In this document: one piece after another, positions 53,122 through 60,623 of the stretch
Layout of the letters: the number at the start of each line of letters is the position of its first letter
How positions within the stretch are numbered: position 1 is the stretch's first letter
Assembly (NCBI GenBank): GCA_019187105.1
Contig: JABAQM010000001.1
Coordinates: forward strand, 3,006,734-3,070,733
Origin: Fimbriimonadaceae bacterium
Lineage (GTDB): Bacteria > Armatimonadota > Fimbriimonadia > Fimbriimonadales > Fimbriimonadaceae
Direction of reading: 5' to 3'
DNA: 64,000 bases
Made by a program: the position numbers and the translations under genes
The notes under the pieces: generated by a model
What the model was told of the DNA's origin: nothing
Database searches by the model: none
What the model saw: only the letters and a program-made list of their open reading frames with translations

Positions 53122-53709
53122 CTACCTTTTGCCGGAGCCACCACCGACTCGGCGCTCCACCGGTCGCTCACCAGACCAATCCTGGGCCGGTACGACAATG
53201 TTGACCGTGCCGGTCGCGTACCATGGCCGCTTGTTACTGGGGTCGTCGTACCAGTATTGGCCCGTATCGAGGTTTCGATCGAATTCACCGGTCAGTCGGA
53301 TGATCGCGTTGCCATAGAGGACGGCCGACATATCGCGTCCGAACCATTGAACCGCGCGCCACTTGCCGTAGATGACGATCTTGCCGGTCCCAAAGTACGC
53401 TTGGCGGCCGTACTTGTCGAACTCCTTCCTGACGTTGCCAGAGACTGCTACACGTCCGTCGATCATATTGACCATCACGGTTCCGGTAAAGGAGATTTCA
53501 AATCGGCCCTCGGCTGCTTTGTAAACCCGCTTCTGATTGGCATCGATGATATCGGCACCAATGGCTTTGAAGCTCCCGACTCCGCTGCGGAGGTGAACCG
53601 TGCCGTACTCCGGCTTCTGATCGACACCCTCCCGCTGAGCGGGCGTGGCCGGTTGGGCCAGCGCGGAGAGGGCAGAAAGTGCGAGAACGGCTACCAGCCA
53701 AAAACGCAT
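53122..53709 (-). CDS. secreted beta-repeat protein, 195 aa
   Basis: A protein with a signal peptide (MRFWLVAVLALSALSALAQP). The body has repeated beta-strand units (KPEYGTVHLRSGVGSFKAIGADIIDANQK, RVAVSGNVRKEFDKYGRQAYFGTGKIVIYGKWRAV, NAIIRLTGEFDRN), with a layout like the OstA/LptA beta-jellyroll but without a diagnostic motif. The tail is basic (GERPVERRVGGGSGKR). A TAAACT hexamer lies 7 nt before ATG 53709, with no Shine-Dalgarno. It is the first gene of a two-gene unit with the RNase H-like gene. Function unknown; periplasmic location likely. Confidence 0.7.
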   Translation of the reverse strand: MRFWLVAVLALSALSALAQPATPAQREGVDQKPEYGTVHLRSGVGSFKAIGADIIDANQKRVYKAAEGRFEISFTGTVMVNMIDGRVAVSGNVRKEFDKYGRQAYFGTGKIVIYGKWRAVQWFGRDMSAVLYGNAIIRLTGEFDRNLDTGQYWYDDPSNKRPWYATGTVNIVVPAQDWSGERPVERRVGGGSGKR

Positions 53710-53716
53710 AGACAGA

Positions 53717-53722
53717 AGTTTA
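53717..53722 (-). promoter_or_regulatory. possible -10 element close to the secreted-protein start
   Basis: Reverse-strand TAAACT (53722-53717) is followed by 7 nt and ATG 53709. No Shine-Dalgarno is seen between. It is a TANNNT-N7-ATG case like 24105 and 38282. Confidence 0.4.
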
Positions 53723-53824
53723 CCAAATGAATCGGATCCATCGAAAAGTGTTGGGTCGAATTTAAATCGAATGTTAGACCACCCTCGTCCATTGGGTAAC
53801 AACGGGATACAGGAAGGATCATAC

Positions 53825-55198
53825 ATGCTGCTGATTTCAACGCTTGGGAGCTTTCTCTTGCTCCTCGTTCTCGCGTTCCAGAGACCAAGCGGGGAGGCTG
53901 CGGCTCCCTGGAAGTGGCGCCCGAGCGATGGGTCCCTGGTGCTCGGACTGGTTCTCAGCGCCTTGGGATGGGGCTTCTTCCGATCAACCCAGCCGAGCAT
54001 CGCCATGGCGATGGTTGGAATTGGCGGTGGGCTGCTCGCCGCCTGGCTTACCGACCGTTTCGCTCGACCCGATGCGAGGTCCGAAGCGTTGGCGGCATGT
54101 TGCCTGGCCGTCGGCGTCATCGGAGCCGTCGCGTCGATCGTGCACCGAGAGATTTGGGCAACCGGTCTTGGTGGCGTGATCGGCATCGCGGTCGCAGGTG
54201 GCGCCCTGTCCAAACGGTGGCTAATGGCAGGCAGTCTGATCGCGTTTGCCGTTCACATCATCAACCAGCTGAACGGATTGAATCCAGCTTTGGGGTCGCT
54301 GGTGGGTATCGCCCTCGTCGCATCCGGTGCGATTGGGTGGTTTGCCGGTTCCTATCGGGGGCTGCAGGGTTACGGCCTTACGGGAGTGATGTGGGCCGTC
54401 CTGGCCGTAGGCTCTTACTTTCTCTTTGCCTCGGCTCCCCAGATTTCAGCCACCATCGACCGAAAGGACCTGAGCATTCTGCTGGTAGGCGGAGTCGCGG
54501 TTGGCGCGCTCTGCTGCTGGGCCAATGGCGAGAAGCCATCCGTTGCCAATCTGGGCCTCCAGGGCTTGCTCTGGCTCGCCGCGGCAACCTATGCGTTTAC
54601 GATCGGTCGCGGGCTCGCCATGGGGATGGTGGCGATGGGGGCGATGGGGGCCGCGATTCTGGCCGGCCGACCTGCCGTCATGGCTGCCGGCACTCCCATA
54701 CTCGCGCTAAGCGCCTTTAGGGCGTTTCGAGATCAGTCGCCCGACCTCAGCCACTCGTTCGACATTGGACAGCACTATGCCCTGGTGGGGCTGTTGATCG
54801 GCATCGTCACGACGTCGGCCCTTTTGGAGTGGCACCGCCAAGGCGGAGGGCTCGACCGCAACTGGTGGGGACGGCTCGCTATCGGCGGAATGGTGGTCAT
54901 GGTGATCGTTGGGGCCCTTGCGATCCTCGGTCCCAAGGGTGGGGCAGGAATGCTGATTGGCTTTGGCATCAGCCCCGTCTTCGCCGCTATCAGCCGGGTT
55001 GGTACCGCAGGCTCGCTTGGAATCGCGGCCTCGGGAATGGCGGCCACGATTCTGGGGTATCCGGCCGTCTCTGCGCTTCAGGATTGGCCGACGGACAGAA
55101 AGATGAATATGGCGATCGCGGTTGGCATCGCTATACTCGTATTGGCAGGAGCAGCCATGCAATCGGCGCGACCGGAAGTTGAGGAGGTGCCGGCGTGA
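53825..55198 (+). CDS. polytopic membrane protein, about 13 helices, unknown function
   Basis: A 457-aa protein almost wholly hydrophobic, with approximately 13 membrane helices and short loops (MLLISTLGSFLLLLVLAFQ; SLVLGLVLSALGWGFF; GIGGGLLAAWLTDRFA; MGMVAMGAMGAAILAGR). Gly and Ala are unusually abundant. I do not recognise a transporter signature. GGAAGG lies 9 nt before ATG 53825, a usable ribosome site. Its stop overlaps the alpha-2-macroglobulin gene GTG start by 4 bp, followed by VanW, so the three genes form one operon and probably one function at the cell envelope. Confidence 0.7.
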   Translation: MLLISTLGSFLLLLVLAFQRPSGEAAAPWKWRPSDGSLVLGLVLSALGWGFFRSTQPSIAMAMVGIGGGLLAAWLTDRFARPDARSEALAACCLAVGVIGAVASIVHREIWATGLGGVIGIAVAGGALSKRWLMAGSLIAFAVHIINQLNGLNPALGSLVGIALVASGAIGWFAGSYRGLQGYGLTGVMWAVLAVGSYFLFASAPQISATIDRKDLSILLVGGVAVGALCCWANGEKPSVANLGLQGLLWLAAATYAFTIGRGLAMGMVAMGAMGAAILAGRPAVMAAGTPILALSAFRAFRDQSPDLSHSFDIGQHYALVGLLIGIVTTSALLEWHRQGGGLDRNWWGRLAIGGMVVMVIVGALAILGPKGGAGMLIGFGISPVFAAISRVGTAGSLGIAASGMAATILGYPAVSALQDWPTDRKMNMAIAVGIAILVLAGAAMQSARPEVEEVPA

Positions 55199-58100
55199 AT
55201 TCGCTGCTCCGTCCAGGTGGTCGCCTGAGCCTTGCCGCTCTGGCCATTCTCGTCCTCATCCTCATGGCGCGCGGGGTCACCGAAGAGGTGCGGACTGGGC
55301 ACTTGACAGGCCGTGTGGTAATGGCTGAAAATGGCCGGCCACTTCCAAACGCCACGGTCGTGATAGATTCTGCAACTGGCGGGCCGGATGACGATCGAGG
55401 CGTAACTCGGATTGCCAAAACGGACAAGGATGGCATGTTCAGCGTTCGACACATCCCCGTGGGGGCTTGCACGATCAGCGCTTACACGAAGGTGCATTCG
55501 CTCGATGCGTCCAGCATCAGCATCCAGCAAGGACAGACGACCCACGTCGATCTGGACCTGAAGCCGAACGTACCGTACCTGGACCTATACTCGTCGCAAC
55601 GGGTGTACCTTCCCGCCGAGCAGGCACAATTCCACTGCCGCGGCTTTGCCTCGGAAAGCGAAATCAAGATCGGAATCTACCGAATCCGGGCCGAATCGAT
55701 CGGCAAAAAGGGCAGCATAAGCAGCCTGCTGGAACCTTACCGCTACTACTATGAGAAGACGCCAACCCTCGATGGCTCGCCGGATTTCGAACCCGTCCAT
55801 CAGCTGAACTGGAAAATTGCGTCTCGCGATGGCGAGGGTGTGTTCGACGAGCACATCAGCCTGCCACAGCTGACGCCGGGCATCTACATGGGTCAGCTGG
55901 ACTGCGGCAGCGCTCGCCAGTTCGCGTGGCTTACCGTCACCGATATCGCACTTGTGACGAAGTCGGCAGGGAACTCCGTGCTCGCCTATGTCACAAAAAT
56001 GGACAGCGGGCAGCCCGTTCAGGGCGCGGTGGTGGGTTGGATCTCGGAAAAGGGATCATTGGAGCTCGGGAAAACCGATGAGGCCGGCATCGCACGAGTC
56101 GTCTTGCCAAAGGATGCGGGTGACGGCAGCCGCCCGGTCTATGCTCAGGCTGGCGACTCGCTCGCCATTAGCTCTTTCTACTCGTACTCCGAGGAATCGG
56201 CGAAGAACACGCGAACCTACATCTATACCGAACGACCGGTCTATCGACCGGGCGATGTCGTGAAATTCAAGGGCGTCATACGGAGGCTCGCCGGCGACGA
56301 TTACGAGCTGCCAGCCAAGGAGCCCGTCGAAGTCCGACTCCAGGATCCGGATGGTAATCGTCTCGCCTCGGTTTCCTTGGCATTAAGCGATTTCTGCACC
56401 TTTAGCGGGGAGTTCACGCTCCCCGATGACCTCACCGGCCAGTACTACCTGTCTTGCAACTATCAGGGTGCGACGTCTGAGCGATATGTGCCCGTGATGG
56501 CCTATCGAAAGCCGGAGTTCAAGATCGATGTCAAGGCGGAAAAACCCTTCTACCTTCGTGGGCAGAAAGTCAGGTTCGTGGCTAACTGCGACTACTATTT
56601 TGGCGGTCCGGTGCCGGGCGCAGAATTTCGCGCCACCATTTACCGCCGCCCGATCTGGCAGCCCTTTGAACTCGGTGAGGATGCGGATCTGGAGGAAGAA
56701 GAAGGGGGAGGCTACGATTATGTCGGTGACTATGTAGGAGTCGTGTCCGGACGAACGGACGCCCAAGGGCTCGCCCACATCGAATTCGATCCCACCCTTG
56801 AAAACTTCGACACCGAATATCCGCAGGACGGTCGCAAGTTTGATTTCGGGGACTCGGACTACCAGTTCACCTGTGAAGTCGGCGTAACCGAGACTGGCGA
56901 CAAGTATTTTTCGGGCAAGGGTTCAGTGAGCGTAGTTAGAGGCGAGTTTGACCTTCGTGCCGATCCTACCGAGTACCTCGCCGCAATTGGCGAAAAGACC
57001 ACGACGAAGATCAGCCTCAAGCGGTTCGAGGGAGGTCATCCCGTTGCGCAGACACCCGTTCTGATCGAGTATGGATTCGAAAACTGGAGTGGTGCCAACA
57101 CAAGCTTCGTTCGGCTGGGCACGGGAGCCGTGACAACGGACGAAAAGGGTGAAGCTGAGTTTCAGGTCAACGCAGAACGCGCTGGCAGCTTTGTAGTCAG
57201 AGCGTCCGTTCGGGACACGCTTGGAAACACCATCCAATCCCAGGCCTACATCTATATCCTCTCGGCCGGCGAGCCAACTTTTGGTGGTCCAAGTCCAAAA
57301 CTGGACCTTACGCTGGACAAAAAGCTTTATGGCCTAGGTGACGTTGTCCAGGGATTGATTCGGGCCGAGAAAGTCGGAGGCACCGCCCTCGTCACGATTG
57401 AAGGCGACGAGGTTTTTCACGCATTCGCCGTTCCACTGAAATCCCCGGCCACTTCTTTCTCCTTCAAGGTTGCAAAGCGGATGACGCCCAACGCCTACGT
57501 GTCGATTGCCTATGTCCGGGAGAAAACCTTTGCCGAGGCGCAACGCCTTCTCAAGACGGACATGGGGTATCGGGCGATTGACGTGAAGATAGCGGCCGAT
57601 AGGGCAGTGGTGAAGCCGGGGGAGGCCGTCACCTACGACATTCAGACCTCCGATGCCGCCGGCAACCCTATTTCTGCCGAGTGCTCGCTTGGTGTCGTCG
57701 ATGAGGCCATTTATGCGATTGCGGAAGATACCTATGACCCGATAGGGTTCTTCTACCCTCGGCGGTATCAGGGAGTTACGACATCGTATAGCTTTCCCGA
57801 GCACTATCTCGATGGAGGCGACAAGGGCCCAGTTAACGGAGAGGTGCGTCAGAACTTCCAGGACACCGCCGCCTGGCTGCCGACAGTGGTGACCGATGGG
57901 ACCGGGAAGGCCAGTGTTACGATCAAGCTGCCGGACAACGTCACCGAGTGGCGGGCGACGGTTCGGGCCGTTACCAAGGACACGGCGTTTGGCAAAGCCA
58001 CGGCGGGAGTGAAGGCGCGGTTGCCGCTGATGGTGAGGCTTTCGGCGCCTTCGCACGTCGTGGAAGGGGATACGATCCGGGTGTCGGCATCGGTGTTACA

Positions 58101-59889
58101 GGACGTTGCCGATTCAGCTGAATTCCGTGTCTCGCTACAGGGCGCCTCCGGGCAACTCCGCGGCAACCCGTCCCAGGTTGTACGGGTCATGCGAGGCGAG
58201 CCGGCAATCGTGAAGTGGGATTGGGTTGCGGCGAATCCTGGAGCAGCCAAGCTGTCGGTTACTGCTGAGGGCGCCGGCGTGCGGGACGCCATGGCGCTGG
58301 ACATTCCCGTGAAAACGCACGGCCGACCCAACGTTGCCAACGCCGCAGGTGAAGTAACCGGCGAAGAGCGTGTCCAAGTGGTCAGATTTGGCAATGCAAC
58401 CGACGGCAGGGTTAGGATCACCGTTACCCCGACCCTGATTTCCGCTCTACTCGACTCGCTTGACGGACTGATCGACTATCCCTACGGCTGCACGGAGCAA
58501 ACGATGAGCCGGTTCCTACCGGCGGTTGTAACAGGACAGTTGATTCGAAAAATGGGCCTTCAGAGGCCGGAGCTAATGGCGAAGCTGCCGGAAGTTGCCA
58601 GTCGCTCGATGACGCGCCTTCGCAATTTGCAACACCCGGATGGGAGCTGGGGCTGGTGGGAGAACGATCAGACCGACACGGGCATGACGGCTCTTGTCCT
58701 CGAAGGCCTTTGGGAAAGCCAAAAGGCGGGATACCCGCCACCCGGACAAATGATCAGCCGGGCTAAAGCCGGGGCTCAGGAACTACTGAAGCGTGCGGCT
58801 GGTACGCCTGAACAGATAACCCACCTGGCCTACGGACTCGCTCTGTGGGAACCAACAGAAGCGCACGCTGAATGGCTGTCAAGTTACACCGCTCCTCCCG
58901 CCAACGCGGTGGCGCTGGCCTGGTACGCGCTGGCCTGCAAGGCGATGGCCGGCAAATTCCCAACCTTGAAACCCTTGGGGATAAACGCCGCCGATCGCCT
59001 CAAGCAAATCGCCGAACGCGACAGTTCGACCATGCACTGGAAGGAATCCTATGGGGTGGAAACGACAGCCATCGCCATGAAATCTCTTTCCAAAATGACC
59101 CCTGACGATCCTGATCTTGTGAAGATCGCTCGATACCTGATGCGAGCGAAACGGGCGGGCGGTTGGCTGAGCACTCGGGACACGGCGACCGTCTTGCTCG
59201 CTCTTGCACCGAGAGCCGAGAGGGAACTGGCGTCGGCATATGATTTAACCGTGGAGATGAACGGCAAGTCCATCGGCAATGTGCGAGTTGGGCCGAGCTC
59301 CCGCGGGCCATGGGTTCACGACATCCCGATAAGCAATCTCGCAAACGGCAATAACGAGTTGGTTTTCAGAAAGTCAGGGGCGGGGGTCTGCTATTACGCA
59401 GTGGAAACGCGTCAGATTCCCCACCAGGAACGGATCGGGGTGCTACTTAATCAATCGCAGCTCAGTATCCAGCAAAGTTATCACTCCCTGCGGGTACGCA
59501 CCTCGGAGCAAGGCGAAATGCGCCTTATGCCAAGCCCAAGCCCGGAGACGACCTTCAGAAGCGGGGATGTGCTGAAGTGCATCGTGAAGCTCCAGGCAAA
59601 GAAGGACCTTGAATATGTCGTGATCGAGATCCCCATACCCGCGGGCTTTCGTGTTACCGAAGATATGGAACCCATGGAGTGGAACTGGTGGTGGTCTGGG
59701 ATGAGCATTCTTGACGATCGTGTTGCGGTATTCGCGGCGTCGATCGCTCCGGGACAGCACCACGTCGAGTTCACGATAAGAGCGGAGGCTCCCGGCGAGA
59801 CGTCGGCTATGCCGGCCACGGCCTATGAGATGTACGCTCCCGACCAGCGCGCTTCTTGTGAGGAGACCAGGCTGAGGATCCTGCCATGA
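55195..59889 (+). CDS. alpha-2-macroglobulin family protein with thioester motif
   Basis: A 1564-aa protein. Membrane helix near the N-terminus (LSLAALAILVLILMARGV) followed by a carboxypeptidase-regulatory-like domain (GRPLPNATVVIDS). MG domains include YIYTERPVYRPGDVVKFKGV, characteristic of A2M proteins. The bait-like and CUB-type region precedes FQDTAAWLPTVVTDGTGKASVTIKLPDNVTEWRATV, and the thioester motif YGCTEQTMSRFLP (Cys1099, Gln1102) sits in the terpenoid-cyclase-like domain (GSWGWWENDQTDTGMTALVL). Bacterial A2M traps proteases in the periplasm. Start GTG 55195 overlaps the membrane protein; the stop overlaps VanW by 4 bp. The usual partner pbpC is absent. Confidence 0.95.
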   Translation: MNSLLRPGGRLSLAALAILVLILMARGVTEEVRTGHLTGRVVMAENGRPLPNATVVIDSATGGPDDDRGVTRIAKTDKDGMFSVRHIPVGACTISAYTKVHSLDASSISIQQGQTTHVDLDLKPNVPYLDLYSSQRVYLPAEQAQFHCRGFASESEIKIGIYRIRAESIGKKGSISSLLEPYRYYYEKTPTLDGSPDFEPVHQLNWKIASRDGEGVFDEHISLPQLTPGIYMGQLDCGSARQFAWLTVTDIALVTKSAGNSVLAYVTKMDSGQPVQGAVVGWISEKGSLELGKTDEAGIARVVLPKDAGDGSRPVYAQAGDSLAISSFYSYSEESAKNTRTYIYTERPVYRPGDVVKFKGVIRRLAGDDYELPAKEPVEVRLQDPDGNRLASVSLALSDFCTFSGEFTLPDDLTGQYYLSCNYQGATSERYVPVMAYRKPEFKIDVKAEKPFYLRGQKVRFVANCDYYFGGPVPGAEFRATIYRRPIWQPFELGEDADLEEEEGGGYDYVGDYVGVVSGRTDAQGLAHIEFDPTLENFDTEYPQDGRKFDFGDSDYQFTCEVGVTETGDKYFSGKGSVSVVRGEFDLRADPTEYLAAIGEKTTTKISLKRFEGGHPVAQTPVLIEYGFENWSGANTSFVRLGTGAVTTDEKGEAEFQVNAERAGSFVVRASVRDTLGNTIQSQAYIYILSAGEPTFGGPSPKLDLTLDKKLYGLGDVVQGLIRAEKVGGTALVTIEGDEVFHAFAVPLKSPATSFSFKVAKRMTPNAYVSIAYVREKTFAEAQRLLKTDMGYRAIDVKIAADRAVVKPGEAVTYDIQTSDAAGNPISAECSLGVVDEAIYAIAEDTYDPIGFFYPRRYQGVTTSYSFPEHYLDGGDKGPVNGEVRQNFQDTAAWLPTVVTDGTGKASVTIKLPDNVTEWRATVRAVTKDTAFGKATAGVKARLPLMVRLSAPSHVVEGDTIRVSASVLQDVADSAEFRVSLQGASGQLRGNPSQVVRVMRGEPAIVKWDWVAANPGAAKLSVTAEGAGVRDAMALDIPVKTHGRPNVANAAGEVTGEERVQVVRFGNATDGRVRITVTPTLISALLDSLDGLIDYPYGCTEQTMSRFLPAVVTGQLIRKMGLQRPELMAKLPEVASRSMTRLRNLQHPDGSWGWWENDQTDTGMTALVLEGLWESQKAGYPPPGQMISRAKAGAQELLKRAAGTPEQITHLAYGLALWEPTEAHAEWLSSYTAPPANAVALAWYALACKAMAGKFPTLKPLGINAADRLKQIAERDSSTMHWKESYGVETTAIAMKSLSKMTPDDPDLVKIARYLMRAKRAGGWLSTRDTATVLLALAPRAERELASAYDLTVEMNGKSIGNVRVGPSSRGPWVHDIPISNLANGNNELVFRKSGAGVCYYAVETRQIPHQERIGVLLNQSQLSIQQSYHSLRVRTSEQGEMRLMPSPSPETTFRSGDVLKCIVKLQAKKDLEYVVIEIPIPAGFRVTEDMEPMEWNWWWSGMSILDDRVAVFAASIAPGQHHVEFTIRAEAPGETSAMPATAYEMYAPDQRASCEETRLRILP

Positions 59890-60623
59890 GAATCTTCTCC
59901 TGGGCCGTGGTCGCCACCGTTTTGGGTGGCGCATTGGTGGTCGACATGCAGAAGCCAACCGAGCGCGCGGTAGGGGTCTACGAAACCCGGCTCGATGGAC
60001 GAATGGCCAACCAGCGTCACAACGCTTTGCTCGCGCTCAGGAAGCTGGATGGGAAAGTCGTGGAGCCCGGTGCCATCTTTAGCTTCAATTCGGCCGTCGG
60101 AAGCTGCACACGCGACCAAGGCTACAGAAAGGCGCCGGTCAGCTACAACGGTCAGCTCATTCCCAGTTGGGGGGGAGGTGTTTGCCAGACTTCCACGACC
60201 CTCTATAACGCCGCGCTGCTGAGCGGCATGGAGATCGTCGAGCGCTGGCCACACCGCTTTGCACCCAACTACGTGAGCCCAGGCCGGGATGCCGCCGTCG
60301 CCTACACTTCGTACGATTTACGGTTCCGGAATACTCTGTCCAAACCCGTGACGGTCCGTGCCGAGCACCGGGCCGGAAGCCTCCGCATCAGCCTCCTTTC
60401 CGCGGATGTTCCCCAAACAACGGTGCGATGTGAGAGTCGAATCGTCAGCCGACAAATGCCTCGGACGTTCGAATTTGGGGGCAAGCCCACGGGCCGGCAG
60501 CGGGTGCGCAATTCCGGCAAGCCTGGATATGACGTGGTGGTCTACCGGGAAACGGACGGGAAGCGGGAGCTCATCTCGGTCGATTCCTATCCTGAGATGA
60601 ATCGTATTGTGGATTTCCGATGA
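59886..60623 (+). CDS. VanW family protein
   Basis: A 245-aa protein with the VanW domain: VVEPGAIFSFNSAVGSC, RDQGYRKAPVSYNG, GGGVCQTSTTLYNAALLSGMEIVERWPHRF and YVSPGRDAAVAYTSYDLRF, all conserved. The N-terminus RIFSWAVVATVLGGALVV is a membrane anchor or signal. VanW was named from a glycopeptide resistance cluster; its function remains undetermined, although links to peptidoglycan are suspected. Start ATG 59886 overlaps the alpha-2-macroglobulin gene by 4 bp. The C-terminal part beyond the VanW core (about 160-245) includes a short beta-rich G5-like tail. Confidence 0.93.
   Translation: MRIFSWAVVATVLGGALVVDMQKPTERAVGVYETRLDGRMANQRHNALLALRKLDGKVVEPGAIFSFNSAVGSCTRDQGYRKAPVSYNGQLIPSWGGGVCQTSTTLYNAALLSGMEIVERWPHRFAPNYVSPGRDAAVAYTSYDLRFRNTLSKPVTVRAEHRAGSLRISLLSADVPQTTVRCESRIVSRQMPRTFEFGGKPTGRQRVRNSGKPGYDVVVYRETDGKRELISVDSYPEMNRIVDFR

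Follow-up and report, generated by a model that had tools for sequence, protein, structure and literature searches.

In the annotated record of Escherichia coli MG1655, the genes yfhM and pbpC abut, with the alpha-2-macroglobulin (A2M) gene first, and a joint periplasmic defence has been proposed in which the A2M stops proteases and PBP1c repairs the wall (PMC5764988). That record bears out the A2M–PbpC pairing with which an initial annotation of the DNA described here had compared three of its genes. A CxEQ thioester is the hallmark of type I bacterial A2Ms, and in the Pseudomonas mag operon the membrane protein MagB stabilises the A2M MagD at the inner membrane (PMC5764988). VanW proteins constitute a second family of L,D-transpeptidases, as shown in 2024 for the VanW-domain proteins LdtCd4 and LdtCd5 of Clostridioides difficile (PMC12729407, PMC11986978). 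These enzymes use a triad of Cys, His and a small residue, and certain VanW proteins are without L,D-transpeptidase activity (PMC12729407).

The locus analysed here lies in a 3.3 Mb Armatimonadota genome whose nearest relatives are Fimbriimonadaceae and Chthonomonadaceae MAGs. Within the window, which is the whole stretch of 64,000 nucleotides under analysis, a cassette of three genes encodes a polytopic membrane protein, an A2M and a VanW protein, with the following features:

53825–55198, + strand: gene 1, polytopic membrane protein (457 aa, ATG at 53825)
54719–54778, + strand: most conserved stretch of gene 1, residues 299–318, RAFRDQSPDLSHSFDIGQHY (R299 invariant in 48 relatives)
55195–55198, + strand: 4-bp overlap of the gene 1 and A2M open reading frames (same -4 offset in many relatives)
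55195–59889, + strand: gene 2, A2M (1564 aa, GTG start)
57301–57717, + strand: bait-region domain of the A2M, residues 703–841 (Pfam PF07703, E 1.8e-15)
58489–58500, + strand: thioester motif CTEQ, Cys1099–Gln1102 (CxEQ in 37 of 37 cassette relatives)
59886–59889, + strand: 4-bp overlap of A2M and VanW (VanW start codon at -4 relative to the A2M stop in 30 of 37 relatives)
59886–60623, + strand: gene 3, VanW–G5 protein (245 aa)
60183–60185, + strand: predicted catalytic Cys100 in WGGGVCQT (invariant in 29 relatives)
60252–60254, + strand: predicted catalytic His123 (invariant in 29 relatives)

The coordinates of the open reading frames agree to the base with the two exact 4-bp overlaps described initially, and the overlap between gene 1 and the A2M is likely to couple their translation. 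The genome has a single A2M domain and two VanW domains in total, and the cassette is surrounded by the housekeeping genes rho, grpE, glmM and coaX. A divergent gene of approximately 200 aa (window 53122–53763, minus strand), whose product begins in a signal-like manner and matches no Pfam family, has its upstream region in common with the cassette.

Bacterial and archaeal genomes were scanned with one VanW protein as query, an approach that reaches close relatives only; this returned 62 loci, mostly from the Armatimonadota, and the A2M lay directly upstream of VanW in 37 of them. A profile of the membrane gene matched all 33 cassette loci that have sequence upstream of the A2M. Linkage was then counted in an even sample of 121 Armatimonadota genomes, 97 of which contained A2M domains (145 A2M genes). 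A same-strand VanW was found 1.75–2.6 kb downstream of the A2M domain for 49 of these 145 genes, in 49 genomes, and 31 of the 49 linked pairs were full triplets with the membrane gene upstream, while several more were severed by contig ends. By our estimate, chance would supply approximately 0.001 such VanW neighbours per A2M gene, and the 49 pairs in 49 genomes, with their near-constant spacing, rule out chance adjacency. The membrane gene showed the same association, as 34 of its 43 matches preceded VanW-linked A2Ms and the remainder were mostly weak or at contig ends. The initial annotation had called for a search for conserved A2M–VanW neighbours and held that their absence from related genomes would count against a functional unit; given the linkage observed, such an absence is excluded. 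Conservation of the A2M–VanW–membrane gene cassette in the Armatimonadota is, in our judgement, practically certain.

Most of the 96 A2M genes in the phylum with no VanW link belonged to other A2M subfamilies, and 20 neighbourhoods of unlinked A2Ms were varied, with tatC, a glycogen-debranching gene and IMPDH among the genes present. For example, the A2Ms at loci L096 and L114 (genomes G003 and G080) represent another subfamily that has kept the thioester and has no VanW link, and lie directly 3' of a gene for a six-helix protein, which is TatC in L096. Other Fimbriimonadaceae A2M genes lack the CxEQ thioester and are type II-like (L107 in G078 and L115 in G111), and G111 carries both forms. 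Solitary VanW genes with no A2M nearby also occur (e.g. L028, L034, L037, L041–L047 and L049–L055), and the one in L034 adjoins a gene for a 2145-aa hybrid histidine kinase with 11–12 HAMP domains and three receiver domains (L034:10970-17407).

Cassette-type A2Ms clustered in a tree of 50 A2M proteins, with 3 label changes against a shuffled mean of 14.9, and the unit is therefore old and mostly vertically inherited. The same grouping leaves a recent mobile unit that spreads A2M and VanW horizontally unsupported. In one genome (L099, G013:C3:446500-459500), the putative pseudo-pyrophosphatase described below adjoins the A2M while the cassette-type VanW is found on another contig, and this relocation suggests that gene 1 and the A2M form the tighter pair. 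Two loci from the scan carry labels from outside the phylum: L020 (JADZEW010000001.1), labelled Methanoregulaceae archaeon, holds an Armatimonadota cassette near-identical to that of L017, and L030 (SYKE01000189.1), labelled Actinomycetota, holds one that matches genome G035 of the phylum. Both labels are probable binning or labelling errors.

The A2M contains MG2, bMG3, bait-region (A2M_BRD), A2M, TED and bMG10 domains, with an N-terminal CarboxypepD_reg domain (macroglobulin-type Pfam ids PF07703, PF01835, PF00207, PF07678, PF11974 and PF17973). The CTEQ motif begins at residue 1099, in agreement with the thioester residues Cys1099 and Gln1102 read from the sequence at the outset, and the CxEQ motif, bait region and macroglobulin domains together place the protein among the type I A2Ms. 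A sequence search of the PDB with the A2M returned the structures of human A2M and E. coli YfhM. Its N-terminus is hydrophobic, either an anchor or a signal, and lacks a lipobox Cys; in relatives the hydrophobic N-terminus is followed by a conserved (G)(V/I)T.E(V/T)P.G segment. The genome also encodes an Omp85 protein; the host therefore has an outer membrane and a periplasm (diderm).

Gene 3 encodes a membrane helix (residues 2–21), a VanW domain (residues 42–170; PF04294, E 2.1e-45, 153.9 bits against a cut-off of 27) and a C-terminal G5 domain (about 178–245). The same order of N-terminal membrane helix, VanW and C-terminal G5 was recovered in an AlphaFold2 model (pLDDT 91.9, pTM 0.86), with which Foldseek found G5 structures; the G5 domain alone matched clearly, and the VanW domain itself had no clear match among PDB structures. 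The predicted catalytic Cys100 and His123 are also common to VanW proteins of Clostridia and Paenibacillus. No PG4 peptidoglycan-binding domain was found in gene 3, whose C-terminus is taken up by G5 with no room for PG4. We know of no requirement for a PG4 domain in VanW L,D-transpeptidase activity. The suspicion that VanW proteins act on peptidoglycan, raised in the initial annotation, is backed by the published C. difficile enzymes (PMC12729407, PMC11986978). Together with the invariant Cys100 and His123, this precedent makes a transpeptidase role the likeliest for the VanW–G5 protein, and the predicted L,D-transpeptidase activity is, on this footing, rather more probable than its absence. 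As the genome also encodes two YkuD proteins, VanW is not the sole crosslinker candidate.

No PBP1c gene was found beside this A2M, and VanW occupies that position. The domain that distinguishes PbpC, BiPBP_C, was not found in the host genome and scored above the Pfam threshold in just 2 of the 121 Armatimonadota genomes, which fits the earlier proposal that VanW stands in place of PbpC. With BiPBP_C nearly absent from the phylum, no PbpC was found there as a partner of other A2Ms. The host encodes a single Transgly protein (class A PBP), which lies 0.4 Mb away and outside the window.

The gene 1 protein belongs to no Pfam or NCBIfam family, and searches of Pfam, NCBIfam and PDB sequences gave no convincing match to a known transporter family. 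The gene 1 family is fast-evolving, with approximately 20% identity to the window copy and only R299 and G379 invariant. An AlphaFold2 model built on an alignment of 48 relatives (pLDDT 85.7, pTM 0.89) contains 15 helical elements, of which two have the length of a double span, and thus predicts approximately 16–17 membrane helices, so the 13 helices counted initially were too few. Foldseek placed this model with the membrane-bound pyrophosphatases (M-PPases; E 8.6e-5), and VIA-align superposed 415 of its 457 residues on the Thermotoga maritima enzyme (TmPPase; Z 32.4, 3.2 A, 11% identity), with every listed M-PPase entry above Z 21 and the next unrelated chain at 7.2. Profile comparison with hhalign against 18 Armatimonadota M-PPases gave 97% in local mode (E 8.7e-11, 315 columns, collinear) and 99% in global mode, while controls with reversed profiles stayed below 2%. 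A generic match between helical membrane folds is ruled out by the gap in Z (32 against 7) and by these controls. The size of the alignment matters, as a smaller gene 1 profile (A1) reached 34% in one direction against 97–99% with the larger one. The relation was detected by profile–profile comparison only and not as a single Pfam match; PF03030 (H_PPase) was absent for the gene 1 protein and among the 25 of 32 families listed for members of alignment A3. We consider it very probable that gene 1 is related to the M-PPases, and the two most probably have a common ancestry.

The catalytic centre of the M-PPases has been lost from gene 1. Among 45 invariant polar M-PPase residues, 32 are deleted, 12 changed and 1 kept in the gene 1 alignment, and the deletions correspond to the pyrophosphate (PPi)-binding stretches of helices 5–6, 11–12, 13–14 and 15–16. 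The ion-gate residues D6.50, E6.53 and K16.50 (numbering after PMC5150537 and PMC6882861) align to M134, S137 and I400, the alignment of helix 16 being less sure. As the catalytic centre is deleted or replaced, gene 1 is not a pyrophosphatase in function and is best described as a putative 'pseudo-M-PPase', with the fold kept and the hydrolytic centre lost. The membrane protein left as unknown in the initial annotation is thus very probably an M-PPase relative without a catalytic centre. The true M-PPase of the host is a separate gene elsewhere in the genome (G000:C1:200970-203921) and carries an insertion of approximately 250–300 residues between Pfam positions 297 and 298; the same insertion is present in other Fimbriimonadaceae (G012, G026, G040 and G051), and the resulting open reading frames are approximately 1100 aa long.

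What gene 1 has conserved is predicted to face the periplasm. In the profile alignment, the R299...DIGQHY stretch aligns with M-PPase loop 12–13, which is periplasmic in the T. maritima enzyme (PMC12614893). Even helices of the M-PPase fold begin in the cytoplasm (PMC8657866), and under this topology K371 and the 423–426 region of gene 1 would also be periplasmic. A hand count of Lys and Arg in the loops (approximately 15 inside versus 9 outside) is in moderate agreement with that orientation.

On the strength of the computed results, namely the conserved linkage, the domains present, the intact motifs, the M-PPase fold and the missing catalytic residues, the cassette may be an envelope-protection unit in which a protease trap and an L,D-crosslinker have the pseudo-pyrophosphatase as their scaffold, a reading that we hold with moderate confidence. 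The N-terminus of the A2M would tether it to the inner membrane with its body in the periplasm, where proteases that cut the bait region would be trapped by conformational change and thioester bonding. Similarly, the membrane-tethered VanW–G5 protein would form L,D (3–3) crosslinks in peptidoglycan, and these could reinforce or mend the wall at an envelope breach. The gene 1 protein would act as the scaffold or stabiliser that holds both periplasmic partners together, its most likely role given the loss of the hydrolytic centre and ion gate and the retention of the conserved periplasmic face; as a precedent, the membrane protein MagB keeps its A2M partner MagD stable. Translational coupling would supply the cassette proteins in matched amounts. 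We infer that these neighbours cooperate and may have a shared purpose. In a signalling variant, which we think distinctly unlikely, the former pump encoded by gene 1 would receive the cleavage of the A2M bait at its periplasmic face and relay it, for instance as an ion flux or a conformational signal, so as to regulate how VanW forms L,D-crosslinks. If true, the cassette would sense breaches in the manner of complement and link them to wall repair, and gene 1 would, to our knowledge, be the first case of the M-PPase fold serving as anything other than a pyrophosphatase.

Each component of the cassette could also be read differently. Instead of crosslinking wall strands, VanW might join a protein, most likely the A2M, to peptidoglycan, so that the cassette would be a wall-anchored protease trap. 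Attachment of proteins to peptidoglycan by L,D-transpeptidases has been reviewed (PMC12729407). YkuD-type enzymes join Braun-type lipoproteins to the wall in this way, and such a role would suit an A2M that is translationally coupled to VanW and lacks the lipoprotein anchor of YfhM. However, this attachment is described for YkuD and not for VanW, and the N-terminus of the A2M already supplies a hydrophobic anchor. We consider wall anchoring improbable. We judge it equally improbable that gene 1 is an active transporter, channel or lipid carrier for another substrate, served by the A2M and VanW. The complete 16-helix fold has been retained and a few polar residues that are invariant or well conserved (R299, H317 and K371) lie close to the membrane surface, but the PPi-binding segments are deleted, conserved polar residues within the membrane are few, and the D/E/K of the ion gate are replaced by M134/S137/I400, with the last helices less surely aligned.

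The cassette as a whole may likewise serve housekeeping maintenance of the envelope, with the A2M in a structural or quality-control role directed at proteases that the cell itself makes, and not defence against those from outside. Its single copy, its mainly vertical inheritance, its position among rho, grpE, glmM and coaX and its presence in many free-living, environmental species are in keeping with such a role. However, bait region and thioester have been retained throughout, as expected for the trapping of foreign proteases, and the cassette is missing from many sister genomes and is thus dispensable. We regard housekeeping as rather unlikely.

No paper joining A2M with VanW, or A2M with membrane pyrophosphatases, was found in the open-access literature, which is weak evidence. 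A candidate family of pseudo-pyrophosphatases, in which the M-PPase fold appears whole, the catalytic centre is removed and the protein is tied to a periplasmic immune-like partner, would be new. In its predicted structure, gene 1 has the same 16-helix fold as the M-PPases (H_PPase, PF03030), with homology at the level of profiles; unlike them, it has 457 residues instead of approximately 700, and the hydrolytic loops 5–6, 11–12, 13–14 and 15–16 are missing or shortened. The gene 3 protein resembles LdtCd4 and LdtCd5 in its VanW domain, Cys–His triad and N-terminal membrane helix (PMC12729407). It differs from them in having G5 in place of PG4 at the C-terminus, in its link to an A2M, in its diderm host and in having an activity that is predicted only. 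Outside C. difficile, VanW thereby gains the A2M as a specific candidate partner.

As in the Pseudomonas mag operon, which encodes the type II A2M MagD, the A2M is made with a membrane-protein partner (PMC5764988). In contrast to the present cassette, MagD is without a thioester, MagB has a single membrane helix, and the operon as described includes neither VanW nor an M-PPase relative. The arrangement also resembles yfhM–pbpC (PMC5764988), in that the gene directly downstream of a thioester A2M, in the same orientation, encodes an enzyme for peptidoglycan crosslinking, here a predicted one. Unlike in E. coli, that enzyme is a VanW–G5 protein and not a class A PBP, the A2M has no lipobox, and an extra membrane gene lies upstream. 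The pairing of an A2M with a wall enzyme proposed from E. coli thus recurs in a distant phylum with another, only recently recognised class of crosslinker, and this recurrence supports the view that the functions of protease trap and wall enzyme belong together.
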